A program made the position numbers and the translations under genes. From Synechococcus sp. RCC307 (GTDB lineage: Bacteria; Cyanobacteriota; Cyanobacteriia; PCC-6307; Cyanobiaceae), in NCBI GenBank assembly GCA_000063525.1, contig CT978603.1, positions 2,103,105-2,167,104 of the forward strand: a stretch of 64,000 bases of DNA, given 5' to 3'. Positions 1,846-50,199 of this stretch are shown one piece after another. A model generated the notes under the pieces. That model was given only the letters and a program-made list of their open reading frames with translations, ran no database searches and was not told where the DNA came from. The stretch's first letter is position 1, and every line of letters starts with the position of its first letter.

Positions 1846-3300
1846 CTAAAGGAAACGCTTCAGGCGGATGGTGAAACGACTTCCCTCCCCCGGCACGGAG
1901 TGAACTGTGATTGATCCACCCATTCCATCGACAAGCATCTTGACGATGGAAAGGCCTAAACCAGAACTGCTCTGACCTTGGCGCAGCGTGACCCCTTCGG
2001 CCCGCTGAAAGCGCTCAAAAATGCGCTCAAGTTGGTCGTTGGCAATGCCCTGGCCTTGGTCGACAACCGTGACGGCTACTTCAAAGTTGTCAACCTGCAG
2101 ATCCAGAGCGATCGGACGGTCTGGTTCGGAGTACTTCACGGCATTCCCGATCAAGTTCTCCAGGCACTGAACCAGGCGATCGTGATCACCAATCGCCTCC
2201 ACCTCCTCAACCTGAGCAAGCTGATCAGTGATGGGGTTAGTGAAGGCTGCTCGAGCCAGCTTGAGGGATTGGAGGCAAGCTGCTTTGATCGCGAAAGGCT
2301 CCTGCAAAATCCGCAGCTGCCGGTTGTCGGCACGGCTGAGGTCCAGCAGATCGCTCAGCATGCGGTTGAGTCGCAAAGCTTCCTGATTGGCCACCGTTAG
2401 GGCATCACGGAACTGGGGCTTGAGATCATCGGCACGATTCAGAACCGATTGGATAAAGCCCGAAACAACGGTTAAGGGTGTTCGGAATTCATGGGAAATC
2501 GTTGAAGCAAATTGCTTTTGATTGGTGGCGGCCTGCTCCAACCGGCTCACCATGTGATTGAACTCACTAAGAATCGGCAACAGCTCAATGGGCTGCTTCT
2601 CTAACGAGATACTGGCACTATCAAGATCATCCAACTGAATACCGCTGAACTTGGTGCGCAAGTGCCGAATGGGACGAAAAATCAACAACAGGCAAGCCGC
2701 AAGCAACACCCACAAAGACACCATCAGCACCAACTCTGAAATGGTCTTCACGCGGTTGAGCGTGCCGTACAAAGCCATGTTGTAAATCGGCCGTACAAAG
2801 ATCAGTGATCCGGTCTGCTCTCCACCAGTCAGTTTCACCGACTTAATTGCCACGGCCTGGGGTGTGCCCCAACCAGAAATGGCGAATCGATCGGGTGAGT
2901 TTCGCACCAGCTTGGCGTAGCTCTCGAGTTGTTCCCTTGTGTAAATCCGTTGCGCTCCTTGGAGAGCCACCAAGCCGGCAGAACCATCAATCATCAGCAT
3001 CTTGTTGTCAAACAAAACCAGCCCCTGGAGCAACTTCTGGTAATCCTTCTGGCTACAGCAGTTGATGGCCTCTTCGGCTGTTAGGGAGTCCAGTTGGTTG
3101 TCAACATGATTCAACGGCCGGTCCAGATTGCGCGTGACGATCTGGTTGAGGGCACGGGATGTGTAGTGCCGCCAAAGCTGATTCGAGATCACGATGCTTC
3201 CCAAGGACTGAAAAACAATCAGCACCAACGCGGCATAGAAAAACCGGCGTGCAATCGACCAGTGTTGTTGGGGTCGACCGAAGGGCAGCAAAGGGCTCAT
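1846..3300 (-). CDS. Membrane sensor histidine kinase
   Basis: A 484-residue sensor kinase. Transmembrane segments at about residues 19-41 and 187-208 enclose a periplasmic domain of roughly 145 residues that I do not recognise. It is followed by a HAMP-like linker, a HisKA domain with His270 in the motif SHEFRTPL, and an HATPase domain with N box (NLIGNAVKYS), G1 (DQGQG) and G2 (GLGL, about 447). It lies 84 bases downstream of a PhnD-like binding protein gene on the same strand, and the regulator gene at 4488 is divergent from that pair. The likely circuit is binding protein, kinase, regulator. The signal is unknown. Confidence 0.93.
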   Translation of the reverse strand: MSPLLPFGRPQQHWSIARRFFYAALVLIVFQSLGSIVISNQLWRHYTSRALNQIVTRNLDRPLNHVDNQLDSLTAEEAINCCSQKDYQKLLQGLVLFDNKMLMIDGSAGLVALQGAQRIYTREQLESYAKLVRNSPDRFAISGWGTPQAVAIKSVKLTGGEQTGSLIFVRPIYNMALYGTLNRVKTISELVLMVSLWVLLAACLLLIFRPIRHLRTKFSGIQLDDLDSASISLEKQPIELLPILSEFNHMVSRLEQAATNQKQFASTISHEFRTPLTVVSGFIQSVLNRADDLKPQFRDALTVANQEALRLNRMLSDLLDLSRADNRQLRILQEPFAIKAACLQSLKLARAAFTNPITDQLAQVEEVEAIGDHDRLVQCLENLIGNAVKYSEPDRPIALDLQVDNFEVAVTVVDQGQGIANDQLERIFERFQRAEGVTLRQGQSSSGLGLSIVKMLVDGMGGSITVHSVPGEGSRFTIRLKRFL

Positions 3301-3384
3301 GGATTCAGACCTTCATCCTGATCTTTGAGCAGTGGAATCCCCCTCGAGAGGCTGGTGATCTTCTGGTGAAATTCGGGTGAATGC

Positions 3385-4419
3385 TCATCCAGCGGGAGCG
3401 TCAATATCGAGACAGGACTCGCGGCCACTGAGTTCTGAGCTCAATTCGCTAATGCGCCGGTTCTGCTCGAGATAGACATCATCAGCCGGCAGATCAAAAC
3501 CTGCGACCCCCATCACCTTCAGCAGCTCACCACTGCCTGAACCCGAAGACAAGTCCATTGCCGTCAAGGCTGACTGGATCGCCTTCAGGGCCTGATCGCG
3601 CTGCGGTGAGGAGTTACCTTCGGAAACAAGAACTGAGTAGTTGCGCTTCGGCTCGCTCAACCAAGCCACCTCGACATCAGCCTGCGCCGAGGGGGAAACC
3701 AGGCGCAGCGGGTCTTCAGCCTGACCTGGCATGAATGCGAAGTCATAGTCGCGGCTACTGGCGAAATAATCGGCTCGGTGACCATGGTGTGGTTCATAGG
3801 CGCATGATTTCAAGTCGCTGAGAGCCACCCCTTGATCTTTCATCTCAAGCAGTGGAGTCAAGAAAGATGAGCCCGAGCTTCTTGAGCCAAAAAGAACCCG
3901 CTTCCTCTTCAGCGATCGCAGGGGATTCTTCTCCTTGAGAGATTGCTTGAGAGCCGAACTGGCCTGTTTACTCACTAGCAAAACGTTGACAAACGATGGC
4001 TTCTCGACAGCCAGGGGCTGAATCAAGTTGTCTTTATCTTGCTCTTCCACTTGGGCCACACCAAGGGATCCAGCCCAAAGCAGATCAACCTTCCCAGAGA
4101 GGAGCAGTTGATGGCTGTGCGCATAATTAATTGCCGGAACGTATTCAACATCTATTTCACCAGACTTCTCTAGATAATCCTCGAGTGCTTTCATCTTCCG
4201 ATTCATTTTTTCTTGCTGGTAGTAAGGCTCTTCAGTAATACGAATCACCACCTTTCCATCCCCTGCCCCTGCCTGAGGCGGCTGAATTGAGCCTGCCTGA
4301 GGCTCACAGCCCAACAAAAGTCCTGCCAGTAATGAAGCGGCGCTCAGCGATGCCGTCTGCTGAAACGTCACCCACCTTCCGCCTGAGCCCATCAACCTAG
4401 CCAAGCCCTTAAGAGACAA
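3385..4419 (-). CDS. PhnD-like periplasmic substrate-binding lipoprotein
   Basis: A 344-residue protein of the phosphate/phosphonate-binding (PhnD) superfamily. The N-terminal hydrophobic stretch ends in the lipobox LLLGC (Cys38), so it is probably a membrane-anchored lipoprotein. Family features include the early beta strand IRITEEPYY and the segment LLSGKVDLLWAG. No ABC permease or ATPase gene is next to it. Instead its neighbours are a histidine kinase (downstream, same strand) and a response regulator (divergent, 68 bases away). This suggests a role as a ligand receptor feeding the kinase rather than in transport. The ligand cannot be read from the sequence. Confidence 0.85.
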   Translation of the reverse strand: MSLKGLARLMGSGGRWVTFQQTASLSAASLLAGLLLGCEPQAGSIQPPQAGAGDGKVVIRITEEPYYQQEKMNRKMKALEDYLEKSGEIDVEYVPAINYAHSHQLLLSGKVDLLWAGSLGVAQVEEQDKDNLIQPLAVEKPSFVNVLLVSKQASSALKQSLKEKNPLRSLKRKRVLFGSRSSGSSFLTPLLEMKDQGVALSDLKSCAYEPHHGHRADYFASSRDYDFAFMPGQAEDPLRLVSPSAQADVEVAWLSEPKRNYSVLVSEGNSSPQRDQALKAIQSALTAMDLSSGSGSGELLKVMGVAGFDLPADDVYLEQNRRISELSSELSGRESCLDIDAPAG

Positions 4420-4487
4420 GCCAGAGCTTGGGGACCAGCAAGCAATGCCTGATTAGCATCGAATGAGCTAAAGGCGCCCCATATTCG

Positions 4488-5177
4488 ATGAATCCTGCTG
4501 ACCAATCAATCCTGATCGCAGATGATGAAGCCAATATTTTGATGCTCTTGGAGATGGAGCTTCAAGCCGAAGGCTTTTCCACCATCGGCTGCGGCGACGG
4601 GGCCAAAGCCCTGGCTCAAATCAGGGAATCGGCTCCAGCAATTGCGCTGTTGGATTGGAATATGCCGATCATTACGGGGCTCGATGTCTGCCGCAGGCTG
4701 CGTGACACCGGCAATCGCATTCCGGTGATCATGATCACGGCCCGCGATGAAATGGATGACCGCGTCGCTGCCCTTGAGGCTGGCGCTGATGACTTCATCT
4801 CCAAACCCTTCAACATCCGTGAGGTCTTGGCGCGAGTCAAAGCTCTCTTGCGGCGCAGCACGGCGATCAGCCCGGATCAACTGAACTTTGGTGATCTGCA
4901 CCTCAATGGTGCTGAGCGGCGCTGCAGCTACGGGGGCCAGGAGCTCACCCTCACGGTGCGCGAATTTGATCTGCTGGAATGCTTTCTGCGCAACCCGCGG
5001 CAAGCCCTAAGCCGCACCCAACTGATCCAAAACGTCTGGGGTGAGGACTACTTCGGCGACGACAACGTGGTCGATGTGTATGTGCGCTACCTGAGGCGCA
5101 AGCTTGAAGAGGTCAAGCCCGACCGCATCATCCAGACCATCCGCGGCATCGGCTTTGCCCTGCGCGTTGACGAGTGA
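4488..5177 (+). CDS. OmpR/PhoB-family response regulator
   Basis: A 229-residue two-domain regulator. The receiver domain (about 7-120) has the acidic pair Asp12-Asp13, the phosphoacceptor Asp56 in LLDWNMP, and Lys106 in SKPF. The C-terminal winged helix (about 130-227) carries the typical TVREFDLLECFLRNP and VDVYVRYLRRKLE segments. It is divergent from the PhnD-like gene, which is followed by the histidine kinase, so it is the natural partner of that kinase. A hairpin terminator follows at 5274. The target promoters are not identifiable; the shared 68-bp divergent region is a candidate. Confidence 0.95.
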   Translation: MNPADQSILIADDEANILMLLEMELQAEGFSTIGCGDGAKALAQIRESAPAIALLDWNMPIITGLDVCRRLRDTGNRIPVIMITARDEMDDRVAALEAGADDFISKPFNIREVLARVKALLRRSTAISPDQLNFGDLHLNGAERRCSYGGQELTLTVREFDLLECFLRNPRQALSRTQLIQNVWGEDYFGDDNVVDVYVRYLRRKLEEVKPDRIIQTIRGIGFALRVDE

Positions 5178-12787: not shown

Positions 12788-12951
12788 AGCGTCTTGGCAA
12801 AGCCCTCTTGACGCTAATAAGCGCAGAGAAAGCCGTCAGCAAAAGGGCTCACCAGAAACGCACCAGAACTCCTATCCAGACCCCCCAGAAGCACTACGAG
12901 AAATCCAAAAACCAAAGGAGAGGCTGCGGTTGTTGAGAACACAAACAACCG

Positions 12952-15900
12952 ATGACACCTACCTACACCAAACTGCAAATCGAAGCAGGTGGCGAAACCG
13001 AACTGCTGGAGCAAACCGGCGACCAGACGATGGTCGCCATGCAAGGCAAGACAGACTTTGCTATCCGCAATCAAGACGGAACAGCCAGCACCGCAGTCGA
13101 CCACAAATGGCACATGATCAGTGCTGAGCAAGTTGGCGAAAGCGGAAGTGTCATTTGGCAAAACGCTGAGACCGGAGCATTCCGCGAAACCAAATACAAC
13201 ATCGACAAGACCCAAAAAAATTGGACACAAAGCGGAGAAGCTCAAGAACTCACGACTAGTGAGCTCTACGCGCGGGAAGGCCAACACAAGACTGACCTCA
13301 ATGGTGATGGCTTTCAGAGCTCAAGCGAAGTCTTGCTGAAAGGCCCTGGCACTCAACAGCAAGGTTCATCTGAAATCATGCTGGAAGGCGATGGCCTCAT
13401 CAACAGCGCAAACAAGGTTGTTGGCCAATGGAAAGCAGACCGCAACACTGAATACTCGATCGAGGGAAAGGATAAAGCGCTATTTGCCATTGATAACAAT
13501 GGCAAAGTGACCTTCACCGGGGATGCATTTGCCTCAGACCCAAAAACCGCAACTGGTCCAACAGCCTATGAATTCACAGTCAAGGCCACCGATAAATCAA
13601 CGAATCAGAGTGTGAGCCAAACGGTCAAACTTCGACAAAGGCATGTCATCGAAGTAACCAGCAATGCTGGAGACACAAGCAAAGGCTCTTTTGGGTGGGC
13701 CGTGCAGCAGGCCAATCAGCTAGGGGCTAAAAACATTGCCTCCGAGATTCGCTTCAAAGAAAGCATGACAATTGAAAGCAAGAATGGATACCATCTCACG
13801 CATGGCGACGTCAAAATCAATAGTTATAACTCCAAAAATGTCTCCATTAAACGCACAGGCAATGGCTCAGCCTTCACCATCGGAGAATACGAATATGCAA
13901 ACAAACACGATGCTAATAAACAACCAGACCTTCAGGTAGAGGCCTCAAATATCAATATATTTAATACAACCGCCAAAGGCCAAGACGCTGCAAAAAATGG
14001 CGGCGGCGGCGGCGGATACGGGACAGGAGCGGGAGTACTTCATTACAACGGACACCTGACTTGGAGCAACAGTGTCGTCCAAGGGAATAGGGTCGTAGCT
14101 GGACATGGAGCAGAGATTGGCTCTGAGGGGAAAGGTGGCCGACTAAAAGTAGTGGGATTTGGCCGCACCACCCACGTGATGCACTATGAAGCCGAGCGAG
14201 GCGATCCTGGCCTTAGGGGAGGAGGACTAAATGATCGCAATCATAGTTTTGGAAACGGGAAAGTTGAGGGTGGCGCGCCAGGGGAAAAAGACCCCTATTT
14301 CTTTGGTTCAAACTGGAAAGGTCACCATGGAAAAAATGGCTCTAATGCACCGAATAGCGCTGGGCTAGGTGAAGGCGGCATTGGACCTGGAGCTGCTGGG
14401 GGCGGAGAGTACAGCCGCGCCAAAGACGTATTCAGCAAGGGCACTAAAGGGAACAGTGGAAAACCAGGAAAAGGCTCAAAGGCAGGCTACGGCGGAGGAC
14501 AGTCAGTAAACGGGAATGGTCAGATTGATGATTCGGATACAAGGGGATGGGGCGGCACGGCCGACGCAAAAAAAGGAGGACGCGGATCTGCGCAAGGCGC
14601 ATTCATGTCTTCATTAGCGCATAAAAATGACAAAAACTCGGTAACAATTAGGACAACTGATGCCCTAGGGAACAAAGCAGAGTCCTCAACTACAGCCGGC
14701 AAAACGAATAACATCCACAGCAGATATCTTGAAATCAAAATCGATAACTACCGGCAACATAAAAGCCATAGAACACCTGATATGCAGCGAGAGACAGTTC
14801 AAGCCGGCACATACAATACCGATCAAAGCGTGAACAAAACCAACCCATTTAATAACTCAGCTACATTCACTCAAGCACAAGACAAAGGGGCTACAGAGAT
14901 CACAGTGAGGTCAAACTCTTTTGTGGTTAAAGAGGATGAGGCCAACATCGTTGGGCAAACCATTGAACTTGATCCGGAAAAATCTCATGTCATCTTTTCA
15001 GGGATGCAAATCAACGACAAAAATACAGTCACGAGTGAAATTCAAAATTGGCAACAATGGAGAGATGGGATTTCAGGAATTATGCAGAAAGTCTATTCTG
15101 TGAAGACAGAGGATGCGATCCGAAATAGCAGAAAAGGATTTATAGAAACTTGGGGTTCCATAGCAATCCAAGCAGCTGGTCAGGCTGGCGCTAAAACAGG
15201 TCCAGCAAGTCTAATCTTAAATGCAGGAAAAGGGATCGTGAGTGAGCTAAAAGAAACAGCACGCATCGAGAAAGAGCTCAAAGAGAGAGAGGCAACTATC
15301 CAAGAACACAAGCGGGTAGAGAGCCACTTTGTGGAAGCGCTGAAAACAAATCCCATTCAGGTCACTGATGTAAGAACGCGCCCTCTTCACAACAATTTCC
15401 GCCTTGGCACTCACACGATCGAGTTCCAACCAGGACTTGATCCCTTGCTGAAATGGGAAGGCGTAAAAAATGGGCAGGCAATTATATCTGTCAACAATAG
15501 AGATTTTAACAATAGAACAGCAGACAATAAGGCTAAGCAGTTTTCGCTCTTCAAGCTAACAAAAGAACAGACAAAAGAGATGGAGAACATCGAGGATCAG
15601 AGCGCCTATCTCAATAGTTTCATTCAATTCAGGCAAGAAGCTGGCAATGGCTTTATCTCCGCAAGAATGGGAACCCAAACGAAATGGCTATTCGTTAAAA
15701 ACAATGCTCAAGATCCACAAACTGGAAACAGCAATGATCGAGTGGCAATTCAAAGAGATTACGGTGCAGGCTTGACTGACAAAACGAACTTGGTAGTTGA
15801 CACTTTTCAAGGCAATGATGTGATTCAAGGCGATCGAGGCAATAGCACAATCAATGCAGGGCGAGGGAATGACTACATCCAGCCCGGACTAGGGAAAGAT

Positions 15901-16806
15901 ATTGTCAAAGGGGGCGAAGGCATTGACACAGTCAGCTATGCCAATATCGAGCAAGCACTAAAGGCAAGGGTTAAGAACGGGAAAATCACTGTCAATTTTA
16001 AAAATGCAGCTGCAAAAAATACCACCATGGATGACGAGATCACAGGAGTAGAAAAATTTGTCTTCGGGAAGAATGCCGATGTTGATTTTGCAGGGCTAGC
16101 GCCTGCAGTGAAATACTCAACAACTGACCCAACAAGAACAACAAACAATCAAGTCACCAGGACAATCACCTTCCAGGAAGGCTCCACAATCAAAGGAGCA
16201 GAAGGAGATGAGAAATTCATCATTAACTTTGAGACCACAAAGGATTCAGCAACCAATCCCAATTCAATCCAAAAGGTGACGGTAGATGGGAGAGGGGGAA
16301 GAAACCAACTGGCGATTGCTGGCCTTGATTCGTTTATAGAGCAAGGGTATGAAGTCATCAATGATTCAAATTCCAAGGAAATTAAAATCAAAAAAGGAGA
16401 AACTGAACATGACATTGTTGATTACGACAATATTATGGGCAGCCCGAAAGTTGTCGACCAGAACAACCAACCCTTAAAAGTAAAAACCCTGCTTTCAAAT
16501 ACCGCAGCAATGGATATCGATGCTGAGGCTGCTGACCCACTAATCAATTATGGAGGCTTAAAAGAACTATCAACCATCAAACCAAGCGAAATGTTTGGCA
16601 GCGATCAACTGATCCTGCAAAACGGAGATAGCTCATTCAACGAATCAGTTGCCAATCTAGAGTTCAACCCAATCATTCAGGGCATGAGCGCAACTCAGGA
16701 TCCCATCAACATGATCCTGAGCGGCACAAGCAACAGCCTTGAAAATGATTTAAACAAACAACAGCAGCGTGACCCTCTGACCCAAGAACGCATCGATAGC
16801 TTCTAA
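12952..16806 (+). CDS. Large Gly-rich secreted protein with RTX-type repeats
   Basis: A 1284-residue protein with no Sec signal peptide. Visible parts in order: a Trp-containing N-terminal module with an EF-hand-like TDLNGDGFQ (about 105-113); a cadherin-like segment (about 150-225, ending EFTVKATDKSTNQSVSQ); a beta-helix-like region (235-345); a very Gly/Asn-rich stretch (about 348-550, with a run of six Gly); a helical, charged stretch (about 735-805); RTX calcium-binding nonapeptides (about 952-985, FQGNDVIQGDRGN, GRGNDYIQPGLGKD); and a beta-rich tail. RTX proteins usually leave by type I secretion and act at the cell surface. No secretion genes are adjacent. Base composition is clearly A+T-richer than flanking genes, consistent with accessory DNA. 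Confidence 0.85.
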   Translation: MTPTYTKLQIEAGGETELLEQTGDQTMVAMQGKTDFAIRNQDGTASTAVDHKWHMISAEQVGESGSVIWQNAETGAFRETKYNIDKTQKNWTQSGEAQELTTSELYAREGQHKTDLNGDGFQSSSEVLLKGPGTQQQGSSEIMLEGDGLINSANKVVGQWKADRNTEYSIEGKDKALFAIDNNGKVTFTGDAFASDPKTATGPTAYEFTVKATDKSTNQSVSQTVKLRQRHVIEVTSNAGDTSKGSFGWAVQQANQLGAKNIASEIRFKESMTIESKNGYHLTHGDVKINSYNSKNVSIKRTGNGSAFTIGEYEYANKHDANKQPDLQVEASNINIFNTTAKGQDAAKNGGGGGGYGTGAGVLHYNGHLTWSNSVVQGNRVVAGHGAEIGSEGKGGRLKVVGFGRTTHVMHYEAERGDPGLRGGGLNDRNHSFGNGKVEGGAPGEKDPYFFGSNWKGHHGKNGSNAPNSAGLGEGGIGPGAAGGGEYSRAKDVFSKGTKGNSGKPGKGSKAGYGGGQSVNGNGQIDDSDTRGWGGTADAKKGGRGSAQGAFMSSLAHKNDKNSVTIRTTDALGNKAESSTTAGKTNNIHSRYLEIKIDNYRQHKSHRTPDMQRETVQAGTYNTDQSVNKTNPFNNSATFTQAQDKGATEITVRSNSFVVKEDEANIVGQTIELDPEKSHVIFSGMQINDKNTVTSEIQNWQQWRDGISGIMQKVYSVKTEDAIRNSRKGFIETWGSIAIQAAGQAGAKTGPASLILNAGKGIVSELKETARIEKELKEREATIQEHKRVESHFVEALKTNPIQVTDVRTRPLHNNFRLGTHTIEFQPGLDPLLKWEGVKNGQAIISVNNRDFNNRTADNKAKQFSLFKLTKEQTKEMENIEDQSAYLNSFIQFRQEAGNGFISARMGTQTKWLFVKNNAQDPQTGNSNDRVAIQRDYGAGLTDKTNLVVDTFQGNDVIQGDRGNSTINAGRGNDYIQPGLGKDIVKGGEGIDTVSYANIEQALKARVKNGKITVNFKNAAAKNTTMDDEITGVEKFVFGKNADVDFAGLAPAVKYSTTDPTRTTNNQVTRTITFQEGSTIKGAEGDEKFIINFETTKDSATNPNSIQKVTVDGRGGRNQLAIAGLDSFIEQGYEVINDSNSKEIKIKKGETEHDIVDYDNIMGSPKVVDQNNQPLKVKTLLSNTAAMDIDAEAADPLINYGGLKELSTIKPSEMFGSDQLILQNGDSSFNESVANLEFNPIIQGMSATQDPINMILSGTSNSLENDLNKQQQRDPLTQERIDSF

Positions 16807-16865: not shown

Positions 16866-16952
16866 TACGCACCGAACTCGAGCAGGCTCGAAGCCAATCG
16901 CAGACCAGCTCCAATGCCGTGGCTAGAAACGGCTTACGCAATTGTTGAAGCC

Positions 16953-17297
16953 ATGCTCAAACCGTTGATCACTGCAGGCCTTCTGCTTGTTGCCACAGCA
17001 GGTTCAGCTCTGGCGCAAGTTCCCCCCAGCCAAGTGCGAGCAGCCAATTTGGCTCGCATGGAGGCTGAACGCATCAATGGCGGACTCAGCAAATACTTCA
17101 CCGCCAATTGCATGCACCGCTCAGGCGGCGGCAATTGCCTCGTCAATGAGAGCGCTGATGGCTACCTGTTCAACTTCCTGGGTGGAGCACCGGGCTGGGA
17201 AGTGAATCAGCAGCCCGCCACCGTGCAAACCAAGATCCTGATTGGCCCAGAAGGCAACCAGGTCAAAAAGGTCATCTACAACGGCGCCCCCCAATAG
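16953..17297 (+). CDS. Small secreted conserved protein (114 aa)
   Basis: The frame is open from 16914, but the ATG at 16953 places a clean Sec signal peptide at the N-terminus (MLKPLITAGLLLVATAGSALA, cut before Q). The mature part has two Cys (NCMHRSGGGNCL) that could form a disulfide, then a Gly-rich stretch and a short basic tail. I do not recognise a named family. It ends 11 bases before the next gene, so the two are probably one transcript. Confidence 0.75.
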   Translation: MLKPLITAGLLLVATAGSALAQVPPSQVRAANLARMEAERINGGLSKYFTANCMHRSGGGNCLVNESADGYLFNFLGGAPGWEVNQQPATVQTKILIGPEGNQVKKVIYNGAPQ

Positions 17298-17308
17298 GAG
17301 CAACACCC

Positions 17309-17692
17309 ATGGCTTTTCTGCTCAAGGTCCGCTGGGAGATCAAGCCCGGGATGCAAACCCAGTTTTGCGAGAGAGCCGATGTGCTTGCCGGGGTGATGCT
17401 GAATCATCCCGGTGTGCTCTGCTATCACGCCGATTACCCCGAGCCGAATCTGAGCGAATGGGTGGAGATCTATGCCAATGACGACACCTTCGCCTCCCAC
17501 CTCGATGACCCTGCCGCCAGCAAACCACTCGGCGAGCTGATTGATTGCTGCAGCAAGGTGTCGTGCCGTTGTTGGGGTGATCCCAACCCCGCCTCCAAAG
17601 AACGGCTCAAAGCCTTCGCCGCTGAATACCAGAACACTGGCAAGGGCTCTTTTGTGCTCAACCCCAACGCCGATCCTCACTCCCACATCTGA
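17309..17692 (+). CDS. ABM-fold (monooxygenase-like dimeric barrel) protein
   Basis: A 127-residue protein. The N-terminal 90 residues look like the antibiotic-biosynthesis-monooxygenase ferredoxin-like fold: FLLKVRWEIKPGM, then a helix, NHPGVLCYHADYPE, and WVEIYANDDTFASHLDDP. Members are small dimeric barrels, sometimes heme- or quinone-related. A Cys cluster (IDCCSKVSCRCWGDP) follows the fold and is unusual; it might bind metal. No cofactor or substrate can be assigned. Confidence 0.7.
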   Translation: MAFLLKVRWEIKPGMQTQFCERADVLAGVMLNHPGVLCYHADYPEPNLSEWVEIYANDDTFASHLDDPAASKPLGELIDCCSKVSCRCWGDPNPASKERLKAFAAEYQNTGKGSFVLNPNADPHSHI

Positions 17693-17935: not shown

Positions 17936-18075
17936 GGGTCGATAGAGCACCTAGATCGACCTTCGCTCCGGCAAGACCGCCAAAGTGGGAAACAGGCCAT
18001 GCATTGACTGAAGATTGCCTGAAACCGCAGTGACGGATTGCTTTTAGAACCAACCAGGGTCTTCATCCCAAAACA

Positions 18076-18102
18076 CGGACCCTGCTTCGGCAGGGGCTTT
18101 TT
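18076..18102 (+). terminator. Orphan terminator at the head of the cassette array
   Basis: Perfect stem CCCTGC/GCAGGG around TTCG, then GC and five T. It has the same form as the terminators that close each downstream unit, yet no plus-strand ORF precedes it. The 17951-18075 stretch shows no gene, which suggests that a former first unit has been lost or decayed. Confidence 0.7.
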
Positions 18103-18113
18103 CATACCTAAAA

Positions 18114-18245
18114 CCCAGTGCTGACAGAGTCACCTGCTCTTCACCAGAACTGTTCTGACGCCTGACCAGAGGGTGACCAGGGGCTCACAAAACCAGCGGA
18201 GATGGTGCAGGTGTCCGGGAGAGATCCCACAACTGATTCAATCCA
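18114..18245 (+). repeat. Cassette leader repeat, copy 1
   Basis: The first of five ~130-nt leaders that share almost all bases from CCCAGTGCTGAC to just before the start codon. Shared blocks: GTCACCTG ... GGGTGACC (an inverted repeat of six or seven bases), CTTCACCAGAACTGTTCTGAC between its arms, ACAAAACCAGCGGAGATGGTGC, and the hairpin GGGA-GAGA-TCCC about 20 bases before the ATG. It precedes the ORF at 18246. Confidence 0.9.
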
Positions 18246-18470
18246 ATGAAGAAGCTCTTTGCTTTCGCTGTCGTTGCTGCACTTGGAGCTGGCACTGCTC
18301 TGCCAGTATCTGCCGGTACCGCAACAGCGCAGTCCATTTGGAATTCAAATCAAGCTGCTAGCCGCGCTCGTCAGCGGGTCCCTGCAGGTGCAGAAGTGAC
18401 TGATCGGCATTGCTCTTCGATTGACAATGGGAGGAACATTATTTGGACATGCAAGGTGACTTGGAAATAA
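18246..18470 (+). CDS. Cassette 1: small exported protein (74 aa)
   Basis: It has a typical Sec signal peptide (MKKLFAFAVVAALGAGTALPVSAG) and a mature part of about 50 residues with two Cys (RHCSSIDNG and WTCKVTW) that may form a disulfide. I do not recognise the family. Its start is fixed by the leader repeat, which ends at this ATG in a way shared with copies 2, 4 and 5. A terminator follows at 18505. Confidence 0.75.
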   Translation: MKKLFAFAVVAALGAGTALPVSAGTATAQSIWNSNQAASRARQRVPAGAEVTDRHCSSIDNGRNIIWTCKVTWK

Positions 18471-18504
18471 TCACAACTGTCTTGAAGGATTCCATCTACA
18501 TAAA

Positions 18505-18529
18505 GCCCCTGCTTCGACGGGGGCTTTTT
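18505..18529 (+). terminator. Terminator of cassette 1
   Basis: GCCCC/GGGGC stem around TGCTTCGACG, then five T. It is one of the near-identical terminators of the array and sits 35 bases after the stop codon. Confidence 0.85.
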
Positions 18530-18540
18530 ACTGCCCAAAT

Positions 18541-18671
18541 CCCAGCGCTGCCTTGGTCACCTGCTTTTCACCAGAACTATTCCGGCGGCTGACCAGAGGG
18601 TGACCAGAGCCTCCAAAAGTCAACGGTGATGGTGCAGGTGTTCGGGAGAGATCCCACAACCGACTCAATCC
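18541..18671 (+). repeat. Cassette leader repeat, copy 2
   Basis: Same layout as copy 1, with a complete GGTCACC ... GGTGACC inverted repeat, the inner ACCAGAACT block followed by ATTCC instead of GTTCT, and the GGGA-GAGA-TCCC hairpin. The two bases before that hairpin differ from copy 1 (TC for CC), while the flanking TGT/ACA pair is kept. Confidence 0.9.
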
Positions 18672-18887
18672 ATGGCCCTCACCGACAAAATCCTCACTGT
18701 TTTTGGTGGTTTCTTTGTTGTTCTTGGAGCTGTTGCCGTCAGCGCAGCACCCATCACTCCAACTCGCTTTAACCCTGCCTATCAGGTCAGAGCCGATCGT
18801 TGGCACCAAGACCACTACACACGGTTTCATCAGCAATACAACGTGGATGGTCCTGCTTCTGAGCGCTGGAATCAAAACCGCTTCTAA
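18672..18887 (+). CDS. Cassette 2: small membrane or exported protein (71 aa)
   Basis: The N-terminal hydrophobic segment (MALTDKILTVFGGFFVVLGAVAVSA) is either a signal peptide or an anchor. The mature part is rich in Arg, His, Gln and aromatic residues (WHQDHYTRFHQQYN). The first 13 residues closely resemble those of the cassette 5 protein (MTLYDNILTVFAG), while the rest does not, so the two share a head with different tails. Function unknown. Confidence 0.7.
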   Translation: MALTDKILTVFGGFFVVLGAVAVSAAPITPTRFNPAYQVRADRWHQDHYTRFHQQYNVDGPASERWNQNRF

Positions 18888-18911
18888 GCCGCTCAAAGGA
18901 CAACAGTCACG

Positions 18912-18936
18912 GCCCCTGCTTTAGCGGGGGCTTTTT
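18912..18936 (+). terminator. Terminator of cassette 2
   Basis: GCCCCTGC paired with GCGGGGGC, short TTTA loop, then five T, 24 bases after the stop codon. Confidence 0.85.
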
Positions 18937-18947
18937 CATGCTCAAAA

Positions 18948-19071
18948 CCCAGTGCTGACGGGGTCACCTGCCCTTCACCAGAACTGTTCTGACGCCTGAC
19001 CAGAGGGTGACCAGTGCCTCACAAAACCAGCGGAGATGGTGAGTTCATCAGAGAACCAAGGGGACCAAGCC
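18948..19071 (+). repeat. Cassette leader repeat, copy 3 (3' part replaced)
   Basis: Matches copy 1 almost base for base through ACAAAACCAGCGGAGATGGT, then departs. The GCAGGTGTCCGGGAGAGATCCC hairpin block is missing and an unrelated stretch with AAGGGGACC leads to the ATG. The GGTCACC/GGTGACC arms are intact. Confidence 0.85.
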
Positions 19072-19212
19072 ATGGGCGCCTTCATCTACGACACCAACGG
19101 AATGCTTCTCTTCTCAGGGCTCAACAAAGCTGCTGCCCTGGCCTACGCCAACTTGTTTGAACTAGCCCAATTCACCTTGGTCATCAGAGAGCCCAGAAAT
19201 CAAGGTCACTGA
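19072..19212 (+). CDS. Cassette 3: 46-residue protein
   Basis: A short ORF reading MGAFIYDTNGMLLFSGLN and ending EPRNQGH. It has no signal peptide and is mostly helical and hydrophobic in the middle (KAAALAYANLFELAQFTLVI). It lies exactly between leader copy 3 and a terminator, which is the main reason to accept it. AGGGGACC upstream of the ATG could act as a ribosome binding site, unlike the other units. Family unknown. Confidence 0.5.
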   Translation: MGAFIYDTNGMLLFSGLNKAAALAYANLFELAQFTLVIREPRNQGH

Positions 19213-19230
19213 ACCGATCGCTAATTCACG

Positions 19231-19255
19231 GCCCCTGCTTCGGCGGGGGCTTTTT
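19231..19255 (+). terminator. Terminator of cassette 3
   Basis: GCCCCTGC/GCGGGGGC stem-loop with five T, 18 bases after the stop codon, nearly identical to the terminators of cassettes 1 and 2. Confidence 0.85.
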
Positions 19256-19266
19256 CATGCTCAAAA

Positions 19267-19398
19267 CCCAGTGCTGACACAGTCACCTGCTCTTCACCAG
19301 AACTATTCCGACGGTTGACCAGAGGGTGACCAAAACCTCACAAAGCCAACGGAGATGGTGCAGGTGTCCGGGAGAGATCCCACAACCGAATCAATCCA
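19267..19398 (+). repeat. Cassette leader repeat, copy 4
   Basis: A full-length copy. The inverted-repeat arms read AGTCACC/GGTGACC, the inner block is ACCAGAACTATTCCGACGG, and the GGGA-GAGA-TCCC hairpin is present. It ends directly at the ATG of the cupin gene. Confidence 0.9.
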
Positions 19399-19914
19399 AT
19401 GCCCCGCTATCAAAAGACTGTCGCTGCTGCTTTCAGCGGAGTCGCTGTCTTGTTTGCTCCAGCCCTCGCCATTGCAACTCTCGTCACTGCACCGGTGCCT
19501 GCTCAAGGGGATCAGCAAGACCATGGCACTAAGCCTTGGGTTGTGAATATCGAAGAGCTCACAACCAACAACCAAAACTTCCGAACCACCTGGTGGACAG
19601 GGAAACAGTTGCAGATGACTGTGATGTCAATTCAGCCAGGAGAGGACATTGGGCTGGAAGTCCATCAAAAGGGTGATCAATTCATCCGGGTGGAAGAGGG
19701 AACAGCTCGCGTGCAAATGGGCACGAGCAAAACAAACCTGAGTTACGACAAAACGGTCGGAGATGACTGGGCAATGTTCATCCCAGAGGGCTATTGGCAC
19801 AACATCTCCAACGCAGGAAATGAAGAGCTCAAGGTGTATGTGCTTTATGCCCCGCCAGAGCATCCCGCTGGCACGATCCATCCAACGAAGGCCAGTGAGT
19901 CATCGCAGCCTTGA
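19399..19914 (+). CDS. Cassette 4: exported cupin-domain protein (171 aa)
   Basis: An N-terminal signal-like segment (about 1-35, AAAFSGVAVLFAPALAIA, probable cut near PVPAQ) precedes a single cupin domain: SIQPGEDIGLEVHQKGDQFIRV gives the first His/Glu motif and FIPEGYWHNISNAG the second His. These would hold a metal ion. The substrate is unknown. It is the largest and the only clearly assignable protein of the five cassettes, and is probably periplasmic. A terminator follows at 19938. Confidence 0.85.
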   Translation: MPRYQKTVAAAFSGVAVLFAPALAIATLVTAPVPAQGDQQDHGTKPWVVNIEELTTNNQNFRTTWWTGKQLQMTVMSIQPGEDIGLEVHQKGDQFIRVEEGTARVQMGTSKTNLSYDKTVGDDWAMFIPEGYWHNISNAGNEELKVYVLYAPPEHPAGTIHPTKASESSQP

Positions 19915-19937
19915 GCCAGCAGATGCTGTTGTGTATT

Positions 19938-19962
19938 GCCCCTGCAGATGCAGGGGCTTTTT
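19938..19962 (+). terminator. Terminator of cassette 4
   Basis: GCCCCTGC/GCAGGGGC stem with loop AGAT, then five T; it keeps the array pattern with compensating changes in the stem. Confidence 0.85.
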
Positions 19963-19973
19963 ACTGCCCAAAA

Positions 19974-20105
19974 CCCAGTGCTGACGCGGTCACCTGCTCT
20001 TCACCAGAACTGTTCTGACATCTGACCAGGGGGTGACCAAAGCCTCACAAAACCAGCGGTGATGGTGCAGGTGTCTGGGAGAGATCCCACAACCGACTGA
20101 AGACA
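19974..20105 (+). repeat. Cassette leader repeat, copy 5
   Basis: A full-length copy with GGTCACC/GGTGACC arms, inner ACCAGAACTGTTCTGAC and the GGGA-GAGA-TCCC hairpin. The bases before that hairpin are CT where other copies have CC or TC. It ends six bases after CGACTGA, at the ATG at 20106. Confidence 0.9.
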
Positions 20106-20297
20106 ATGACTCTCTACGACAACATCCTGACTGTTTTTGCCGGCGCCGCACTTGTCATTGCCGGAGCTACAGCTGCTTACACAGGCCCTCGATGCCCCGA
20201 CCCGCAAATATCAGAAAGCGGCCCGTGCCAAGGACAAATTTGTGGGTATGGCAATTGGGAAGTTTCAGATGCTGGCCCTTACAGCTACCGCTACTGA
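20106..20297 (+). CDS. Cassette 5: small exported or membrane protein (63 aa)
   Basis: The N-terminal hydrophobic segment (MTLYDNILTVFAGAALVIAG) resembles the head of the cassette 2 protein. The tail has three Cys (PRCPDPQ, GPCQGQICGYG) and ends in SYRY, unlike cassette 2. Probably exported or anchored. Function unknown. The array ends here with a last terminator, and the tRNA-Val gene follows on the other strand. Confidence 0.7.
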   Translation: MTLYDNILTVFAGAALVIAGATAAYTGPRCPDPQISESGPCQGQICGYGNWEVSDAGPYSYRY

Positions 20298-20321
20298 CGT
20301 TTCAACCTCCAGGGCTGCCTG

Positions 20322-20347
20322 GCCCCTGCTACTGCGGGGGCTTTTTT
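20322..20347 (+). terminator. Terminator of cassette 5, end of array
   Basis: GCCCCTGC/GCGGGGGC-type stem around TACT, then six T. No further leader copy follows. Confidence 0.85.
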
Positions 20348-20382
20348 CATGGCTGCGCATTCAATCGCAGCGGTTTTGACCA

Positions 20383-20454
20383 TGCCCGGTGCCGGGTTCG
20401 AACCAGCGACATCCTCTTTGTAAGAGAGGCGCTCTACCGCTGAGCTAACCGGGC
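20383..20454 (-). tRNA. tRNA-Val (anticodon UAC)
   Basis: Read on the minus strand, a 72-base cloverleaf: acceptor stem GCCCGGT/ACCGGGC with discriminator A, D arm with GCTCAGCGGTAGAGC, anticodon arm CCTCT-CTTACAA-AGAGG giving anticodon TAC, and T arm GGTTCGAACCC. No CCA is encoded. It sits at the boundary between the cassette array and the housekeeping stretch. Confidence 0.97.
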
Positions 20455-48490: not shown

Positions 48491-50199
48491 TGCCGTATCG
48501 GATTGATCGTCGGACCTATGCCGAGACCTATGGCCCCACCACAGGCGACCGGGTTCGGCTCGCCGATACCGAGCTGATCCTCGAAGTCGAGAAGGACTAC
48601 ACCGTCTATGGCGATGAAGTGAAGTTTGGCGGCGGCAAGGTCATCCGTGATGGCATGGGCCAAGGCCAGACCAGCCGCGCTGCGGGTGCCGTCGACACGG
48701 TGATTACCAACGCCCTGATCCTGGATTGGTGGGGCATCGTCAAAGCCGATGTGGGCCTCAAAGACGGCCGCATCTGCGCCATCGGCAAAGCGGGCAATCC
48801 CGACATCAGCGATGGGGTGACCATCCCCATCGGACCTGGAACCGAAGCCATTGCCGGTGAGGGGCACATCCTCACGGCCGGCGGCATCGACACCCACATC
48901 CACTTCATTTGCCCGCAGCAGATCGAAACGGCGATCGCCAGTGGTGTCACCACGCTGCTGGGGGGTGGCACCGGACCAGCCACGGGCACCAACGCCACCA
49001 CCTGCACGCCAGGGGCGTTTCACATCAGCCGCATGCTGCAGGCAGCCGATGGGTTGCCGGTGAATCTGGGCTTTTTCGGCAAGGGCAATGCGAGCACCCC
49101 TGAAGCCCTCGATGAGCAGGTGCGTGCCGGTGCCTGCGGCCTCAAATTGCATGAGGACTGGGGCACCACCCCAGCAGCGATCGATTGCTGTTTAGGCGTG
49201 GCCGATCGCTTCGATGTGCAGGTCTGCATCCACACCGACACCCTTAATGAGGCGGGGTTTGTGGAAGACACCATCGCCGCCATCAAAGGCCGCACGATTC
49301 ACACCTTCCACACCGAAGGTGCTGGCGGCGGCCATGCCCCCGACATCATCCGCATCTGCGGTGAAACCAATGTGCTGCCCAGCAGCACCAATCCCACCAG
49401 GCCCTACACGCGCAACACGCTCGAGGAGCACCTCGACATGTTGATGGTGTGCCACCACCTGGATTCCTCGATTCCCGAGGACGTGGCCTTTGCTGAATCG
49501 CGGATTCGCCGCGAAACCATTGCCGCCGAAGACATCCTTCACGACCTGGGCGCTTTCAGCATCATTGCCAGCGACTCCCAGGCCATGGGACGCGTGGGTG
49601 AGGTGATCACCCGCACCTTCCAGACCGCCCACAAGATGAAGGTGCAACGGGGGGTGCTCGAGGGCGACAACAGCCGCAACGACAACACGCGCCTGAAGCG
49701 CTACATCGCCAAGGTGACGATCAACCCCGCCATCGCCCATGGCCTCGACCATCAAGTGGGCTCGGTGGAAGTGGGCAAGTTGGCGGATCTGGTGCTGTGG
49801 AAGCCGGGATTCTTTGGCGTCAAACCCGAGCTGGTGCTCAAGGGCGGCTCAATTGCCTGGGCTCAGATGGGCGATGCCAATGCCTCGATTCCCACGCCTG
49901 GCCCAGTGCATGGCCGACCGATGTTCGCCAGCTTCGGCGGGGCCATGGCCCCCTCGTGCCTCACCTTCCTCAGCCAAGCGGGCCTCGATGCCGGCGTTCC
50001 TGAAGCCTTAGGGCTGCGCACGCCGTGCGTGCCGGTGCAGAACACCCGCGGCATCGGCAAAGCGCAGATGAAAAACAACATCGCCCTACCAAAGGTGGAG
50101 GTGGATCCCGAGACCTATGAAGTGTTTGCCGACGGCGAACTGCTCACCTGCGAGCCGGCGGAGGTGCTGCCCATGGCCCAGCGCTACTTCTTGCTTTAA
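48490..50199 (+). CDS. ureC: Urease alpha (catalytic) subunit
   Basis: The 569-residue catalytic subunit; hydrolyses urea to ammonia and carbamate using two nickel ions. Nickel ligands: GIDTHIHFI (HxH), the carbamylated Lys in [16 protein letters not shown], and histidines in [12 protein letters not shown] and [17 protein letters not shown]. The active-site flap MVCHHLD is present. Substrate comes from UrtABCDE, agmatinase and the guanidine hydrolase. Its stop overlaps the convergent gene at 50196. Confidence 0.99.

Follow-up and report, generated by a model that had tools for sequence, protein, structure and literature searches.

What is the role of a leader that recurs in front of five different small genes standing head to tail? 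The question is raised by a tandem array in the complete genome (2,224,914 bp) of Synechococcus sp. RCC307, within a stretch of 64,000 nucleotides (contig CT978603.1, positions 2,103,105 to 2,167,104, forward strand) that is referred to here as the window and from whose first letter positions are counted. An initial annotation had described the shared element as a common RNA leader. Our comparison of sequences indicates that it is probably a promoter with evenly spaced putative regulator sites, and not an RNA element. More broadly, we propose, with a probability of roughly 0.8, that the cassettes belong to a regulon of small secreted proteins governed by a substrate-binding protein, a sensor kinase and a response regulator, in which each leader is a regulated promoter. 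The proposal is based on the anatomy of the array, the periodicity of the leader, the lack of RNA structure, the co-occurrence of operator and regulator across genomes, the class of cargo and an empty site in a congener.

The array consists of five cassettes, each with a terminator, a leader and an open reading frame (ORF), and the ORFs of 74, 71, 46, 171 and 63 residues given by the initial annotation are all present. A 175-nt block of terminator plus leader starts at 18074, 18501, 18908, 19227 and 19934, with 75–90% identity to the first copy. The terminators, described earlier as near-identical, form a 26-nt family of six copies, so placed that the array both starts and finishes with one. 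The claim that every unit has the same leader is valid for cassettes 1, 2, 4 and 5, but not for cassette 3, which keeps only the first ~98 nt, up to GATGGTG, and has a 5' untranslated region (5' UTR) unrelated to the others. The ~35 nt that follow the operator core probably form an optional 5' UTR, which cassette 3 and one copy elsewhere in the genome lack.

The operator core itself is a gap-free segment of 78 bp common to 13 aligned copies from this genome, the congener G070 and a second genus (G168). It proceeds in 11-bp steps, TCACCTGCTCT / TCACCAGAACT / GTTCTGACGCC / TGACCAGAGGG / TGACCAGGGGC / TCACAAAACCA, followed by GCGGAGATGGTG, and its information content is highest at the same positions within each 11-bp step. 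OmpR/PhoB-family regulators usually have tandem direct repeats of 11 bp as their operator, and here direct repeats ~11 bp apart are located upstream of a -10-like box. Of 135 extra CACC/TGACC units (95 sites, all genomes), 130 are in phase 0 or 1 mod 11, a count that excludes the two units used for finding the sites and that is not an independent-sample statistic, because the site copies are related. The GATGGT hexamer retains A2 and T6 of a -10 box in 13/13 own-type copies, and the core has no good -35, which would fit an activator-dependent promoter. Homology breaks just past GATGGTG in both cassette 3 and a copy at 1661 kb. The phased repeats, their fixed distance to the -10-like box, this break and the co-occurrence with one response regulator lead us to read the leader as a probable DNA operator/promoter.

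Eight leader copies, far more than chance would give, were found in the genome by BLAST, including three outside the array, namely two near 966 kb, 1.1 kb apart, and the one at 1661 kb. The pattern TCACCN6TCACCAGAA, with at most one mismatch, occurs at 14 genomic sites versus 0 for the reversed-pattern control, and the two-unit pattern matched 8 times in the window versus 0.44 expected. At least three of the 14 sites (833, 943 and 2212 kb) appear incidental, while the 1656-kb site is upstream of an exported-looking ORF of 68 amino acids (aa). A gene for an RTX/W_rich_C protein in the window is a possible further target, its product being a possible secreted member of the regulon. After the 1661-kb leader copy (L159:8402-9992), apparently one long gene extends over two overlapping frames (173 and 336 aa), possibly through a frameshift, and its C-terminal part is similar to a G070 protein under a leader. 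We regard a weak leader match in G198, located among ribosomal-protein genes, as chance. As for carriage by viruses, neither form of the operator has an exact match in IMG/VR.

A candidate regulator is encoded in the same window. A sensor kinase, a PhnD-like lipoprotein and an OmpR-type response regulator occupy 1846-5177, with the regulator 13 kb from the array and possessing both a receiver and a winged-helix DNA-binding domain (PF00072, PF00486). The units upstream of the kinase gene are TCACCCGAATT/TCACCAGAAGA/TCACCAG, and repeats at this position also occur in four to five other genomes. Across a family set of 400 genomes, which includes Prochlorococcus sp. MIT 0701, Synechococcus UW105 and UW140 and single-cell genomes, kinase orthologs called on the N-terminal part (E<1e-40) were identified in 15. 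At least two exact operator pairs were present in 12 of these 15 versus 2 of the 385 other genomes (Fisher p=1.4e-18), and the same comparison within genus g34 gave 9/11 versus 2/20 (p=1.3e-4). Response-regulator orthologs (63–93% identity, next best 54%) occur in exactly the 15 kinase genomes and have a near-invariant recognition helix; the binding protein adjoins the kinase in 13 of them. In a third genus (G164, regulator 53% identical), a site near the regulator gene precedes a double-glycine (GG) peptide with the same spacing.

Several observations weigh against this regulon. Both p values ignore phylogeny. Two kinase-negative genomes, G245 and the incomplete G311, have 2–3 exact operator pairs each, which could be remnants or the sites of another regulator. 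Conversely, the kinase-positive G221, G318 and G331 have zero exact pairs, with one-mismatch sites in G221 and G318, and the more distant of the kinase-positive genomes have abutting or overlapping genes for the kinase and the binding protein, with no repeats between them.

The genes under the promoter differ in class between this genome and its relatives. In relatives, the promoter has the same spacing, with a -10-like GATCTT at about +72 (here GATGGT at +71) and short ORFs at +120 to +142, and it precedes dozens of double-glycine peptides; GG-type ORFs follow 27 of 43 such promoters versus 97 of 2000 random positions. Matches above cutoff among the relatives' cargo include TIGR03798 (Nif11 leader, prochlorosin-like) and TIGR03949 (class IIb bacteriocin-like). 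LanM is present in all seven tested relatives with the triad of kinase, binding protein and regulator, together with strong C39 exporters. In this genome, the cargo comprises small proteins of the Sec or transmembrane (TM) type, a cupin and ORF 3, and none of the array ORFs has a GG leader. No strong C39 exporter was found here, the C39-like domain being weak (E 2.8e-9) versus E<1e-30 in relatives; it is likewise weak in G070, and LanM is absent from both genomes. The hydrophobic N-termini of ORFs 1, 2, 4 and 5 make it plausible that four of the five products are exported or membrane-bound, as previously claimed. For the cupin ORF 4, phage matches were limited to two unannotated short Listeria phage records in a protein search and one PHROG of unknown function. 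Two cargo genes have counterparts in G070: ORF 3 is identical at 39 of 46 residues, with non-synonymous (dN) and synonymous (dS) divergences of 0.09 and 0.47, and an ORF at 966 kb has dN 0.11 and dS 0.85. Since both are under purifying selection, these genes are not decayed.

The array is also a presence/absence polymorphism. G070 has an empty site with the same flanking genes and tRNA-Val but without positions 18027-20379, and the junction has a 3-bp ACC overlap; the array is likewise absent from G119. G070 has an array of its own, with different contents, near its transfer-messenger RNA gene. The initial annotation was right about different genes under one common upstream element, which extends to the leader copies of other genomes, and array content does vary between close strains. 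The insertion is at the tRNA 3' end, and G294 has a single GG-peptide cassette (L157:540-864) directly on the 3' side of the same tRNA-Val, which suggests a shared hotspot. The insert contains nothing but the five cassettes and has no integrase, no second copy of the tRNA end (att repeat) was found within the window, and a search for integron integrases gave no above-cutoff match in four genomes and none whatever in this one. The array may have been gained by homologous recombination, gained via a helper element or lost in G070; cassette swapping by recombination is possible. At the left border (16944-17692), a small exported-looking protein and an ABM-domain protein are both conserved at the G070 empty site.

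How far do other explanations account for these data? A structured RNA (riboswitch, thermosensor or leader targeted by a small RNA (sRNA)) acting in cis on each ORF, the reading nearest to the initial annotation, is very unlikely. The conserved 5' region is long, most copies have a small GGGA-GAGA-TCCC hairpin in their end part, and the own-type RNAalifold energy is below 99% of column-shuffled controls, although this is probably due to CACCA units pairing with TGGTG. However, the five leaders show no excess of folding (z-scores 0.17, 0.32, 2.04, -1.05 and -0.24), RNAalifold on 13 copies yielded -4.17 kcal/mol with a covariation term of 0.01, which is not meaningful, 43 leaders of relatives yielded no consensus structure at all, and Rfam has no leader match at gathering or relaxed thresholds. 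Conservation instead tracks the 11-bp grid and ends past the -10-like box. We dropped the RNA-leader reading because fold, covariation and Rfam were all negative and the features of a DNA operator were present. If the leader is a promoter/operator, it might be bound by another OmpR-family protein, such as PhoB or RpaB, since the family typically uses direct repeats of 11 bp and further members are encoded in this genome (e.g. G000:C1:498670, 47% identical). This appears rather improbable, as the operator arrays are nearly confined to the small minority of genomes with this kinase and regulator, and the repeats also occur in the kinase gene's own upstream region.

The clean 2.35-kb presence/absence at the tRNA-Val 3' end, the G294 cassette on the same tRNA side and the strain-dependent contents could instead indicate that the units are mobile gene cassettes, either of an integron-like kind or belonging to a tRNA-targeted element, with a leader that is mainly a recombination site. 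We consider this unlikely: the insert has no integrase and the genome no integron integrase, the junctions share 3 bp only, an attC-like fold is absent, many cassettes of relatives are away from tRNAs, and the blocks could recombine by homology without any such element. A recent simple duplication, found only here and with ORFs that have decayed and lost their function, was one of the cases that the initial annotation named as its own refutation. It would explain the near-identical leaders and the paralogy of ORFs 2 and 5, but is scarcely credible given that the cargo genes are mostly unrelated, that the two tested gene pairs are under purifying selection, and that related promoters exist elsewhere in the genome and in other genera.

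In the regulon that we favour, the PhnD-like lipoprotein would sense an extracellular ligand and act on the membrane kinase, which would phosphorylate the OmpR-type response regulator. The latter would bind the tandem 11-bp-spaced TCACCAG-like units, which would stand in for the -35 box, and recruit RNA polymerase to the -10-like GATGGT, so that regulation would take the form of activation. The cargo, mostly Sec/TM-type small proteins here and mostly double-glycine peptides in relatives, is predicted to be secreted and functional. Each unit would yield its own short terminated mRNA, and small secreted-protein genes could therefore be added, lost or exchanged singly within one regulon. We tentatively extend this to a modular platform for export genes, an idea that we hold as possible and no more probable than that, in which the near-identical operator/terminator blocks would be both regulatory parts and landing pads for homologous recombination. 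Any gene that picked up a block would enter one environmental regulon. ORF 3, which has its own 5' UTR, would illustrate this kind of capture, and across picocyanobacteria the regulator would be kept while cargo and export route change. The features are collected in Table 1. Elsewhere in the window (48645-48931, minus strand), an Rfam match to the 5' ureB sRNA is probably conserved urease coding sequence and not the sRNA.

Table 1. Positions of the array, the proposed regulatory genes and related features in the window
Feature	Position	Strand	Basis
Sensor histidine kinase (HisKA/HATPase) of proposed regulator	1846..3300	-	
Candidate autoregulatory operator, three TCACC units in 11-bp phase, directly upstream of kinase gene	3350..3380	-	
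PhnD-like substrate-binding protein (PF12974), lipobox-like LLLGC motif	3385..4419	-	
OmpR/PhoB-type response regulator, proposed DNA-binding partner	4488..5177	+	
TCACC pair, one mismatch, 84 bp upstream of large RTX/W_rich_C gene	12849..12868	+	
1284-aa protein with W_rich_C and RTX repeats	12952..16806	+	
Whole array, 2.35-kb unit absent from congener G070, abuts tRNA-Val(TAC) 3' end	18027..20379	+	blastn against G070 empty site; sequence of that site
Terminator 0, before cassette 1	18077..18102	+	repeat family D2
Operator/promoter 1, TCACC/TGACC units every 11 bp, followed by GATGGTG	18130..18207	+	alignment
5' UTR 1 (inferred), GGGA-GAGA-TCCC hairpin	18208..18245	+	alignment and fold
ORF 1, 74 aa, Sec-type N-terminus	18246..18470	+	
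Terminator 1	18504..18529	+	repeat family
Operator/promoter 2	18557..18634	+	alignment
ORF 2, 71 aa, hydrophobic N-terminus, distant paralog of ORF 5	18672..18887	+	
Terminator 2	18911..18936	+	repeat family
Operator/promoter 3, homology ends just past GATGGTG	18964..19041	+	alignment
ORF 3, 46 aa, cytosolic-looking, own 5' UTR; diverged second copy of family-widespread small protein	19072..19212	+	
Terminator 3	19230..19255	+	repeat family
Operator/promoter 4	19283..19360	+	alignment
ORF 4, 171 aa, signal-like N-terminus and cupin (PF07883)	19399..19914	+	
Terminator 4	19937..19962	+	repeat family
Operator/promoter 5	19990..20067	+	alignment
ORF 5, 63 aa, hydrophobic N-terminus	20106..20297	+	
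Terminator 5	20321..20346	+	repeat family
tRNA-Val(TAC), insertion landmark	20383..20454	-	

We know of no established function or trigger for many small secreted peptides of picocyanobacteria, prochlorosins included. The proposed regulon would connect dozens of small secreted peptide genes across several genera through a single regulator/sensor module and a simple rule for the operator, and the leader promoter becomes a candidate for what switches on secreted peptides of ocean cyanobacteria. Their regulation thereby becomes testable, as the ligand of the PhnD-like protein should point to the conditions that switch the peptides on. No description of the operator, regulator or array was found in the full-text literature searched, which covered few subscription papers. 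Two-component regulons of small secreted peptides are already known; the specific link of regulator, operator and cargo was not found in the same literature.

In Gram-positive bacteria, the pln and blp systems place class II bacteriocins and related peptides in two-component regulons. They resemble the present case in having many scattered small double-glycine peptide genes, one direct-repeat operator and one two-component system. However, theirs are LytTR-type regulators that sense a peptide pheromone, whereas an OmpR-type regulator and a PhnD-like protein are present here, and the cargo of this genome is not of the GG type. The Pho box of PhoB likewise has tandem 11-bp direct repeats upstream of the -10 and lacks a good -35, but the unit here is TCACCAG and not CTTAACC-like, three to five units are present, and the targets are small secreted proteins instead of phosphate-uptake genes. 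Prochlorosins (ProcA/ProcM; PMC10783134) are approached by the triad-bearing relatives, which have Nif11-leader peptides under the promoter together with LanM, whereas this genome is without LanM; nearby regulators come up in that paper in general terms only. EbfG1-4 of S. elongatus PCC 7942 are small secreted proteins with a GG motif, whose transcription responds to an extracellular signal (PMC4997328), and control of small secreted GG-motif proteins by such a signal is the point of likeness. They differ in forming one polycistronic operon, with no matching regulator in that report, whereas the genes described here stand in single promoter–terminator units.

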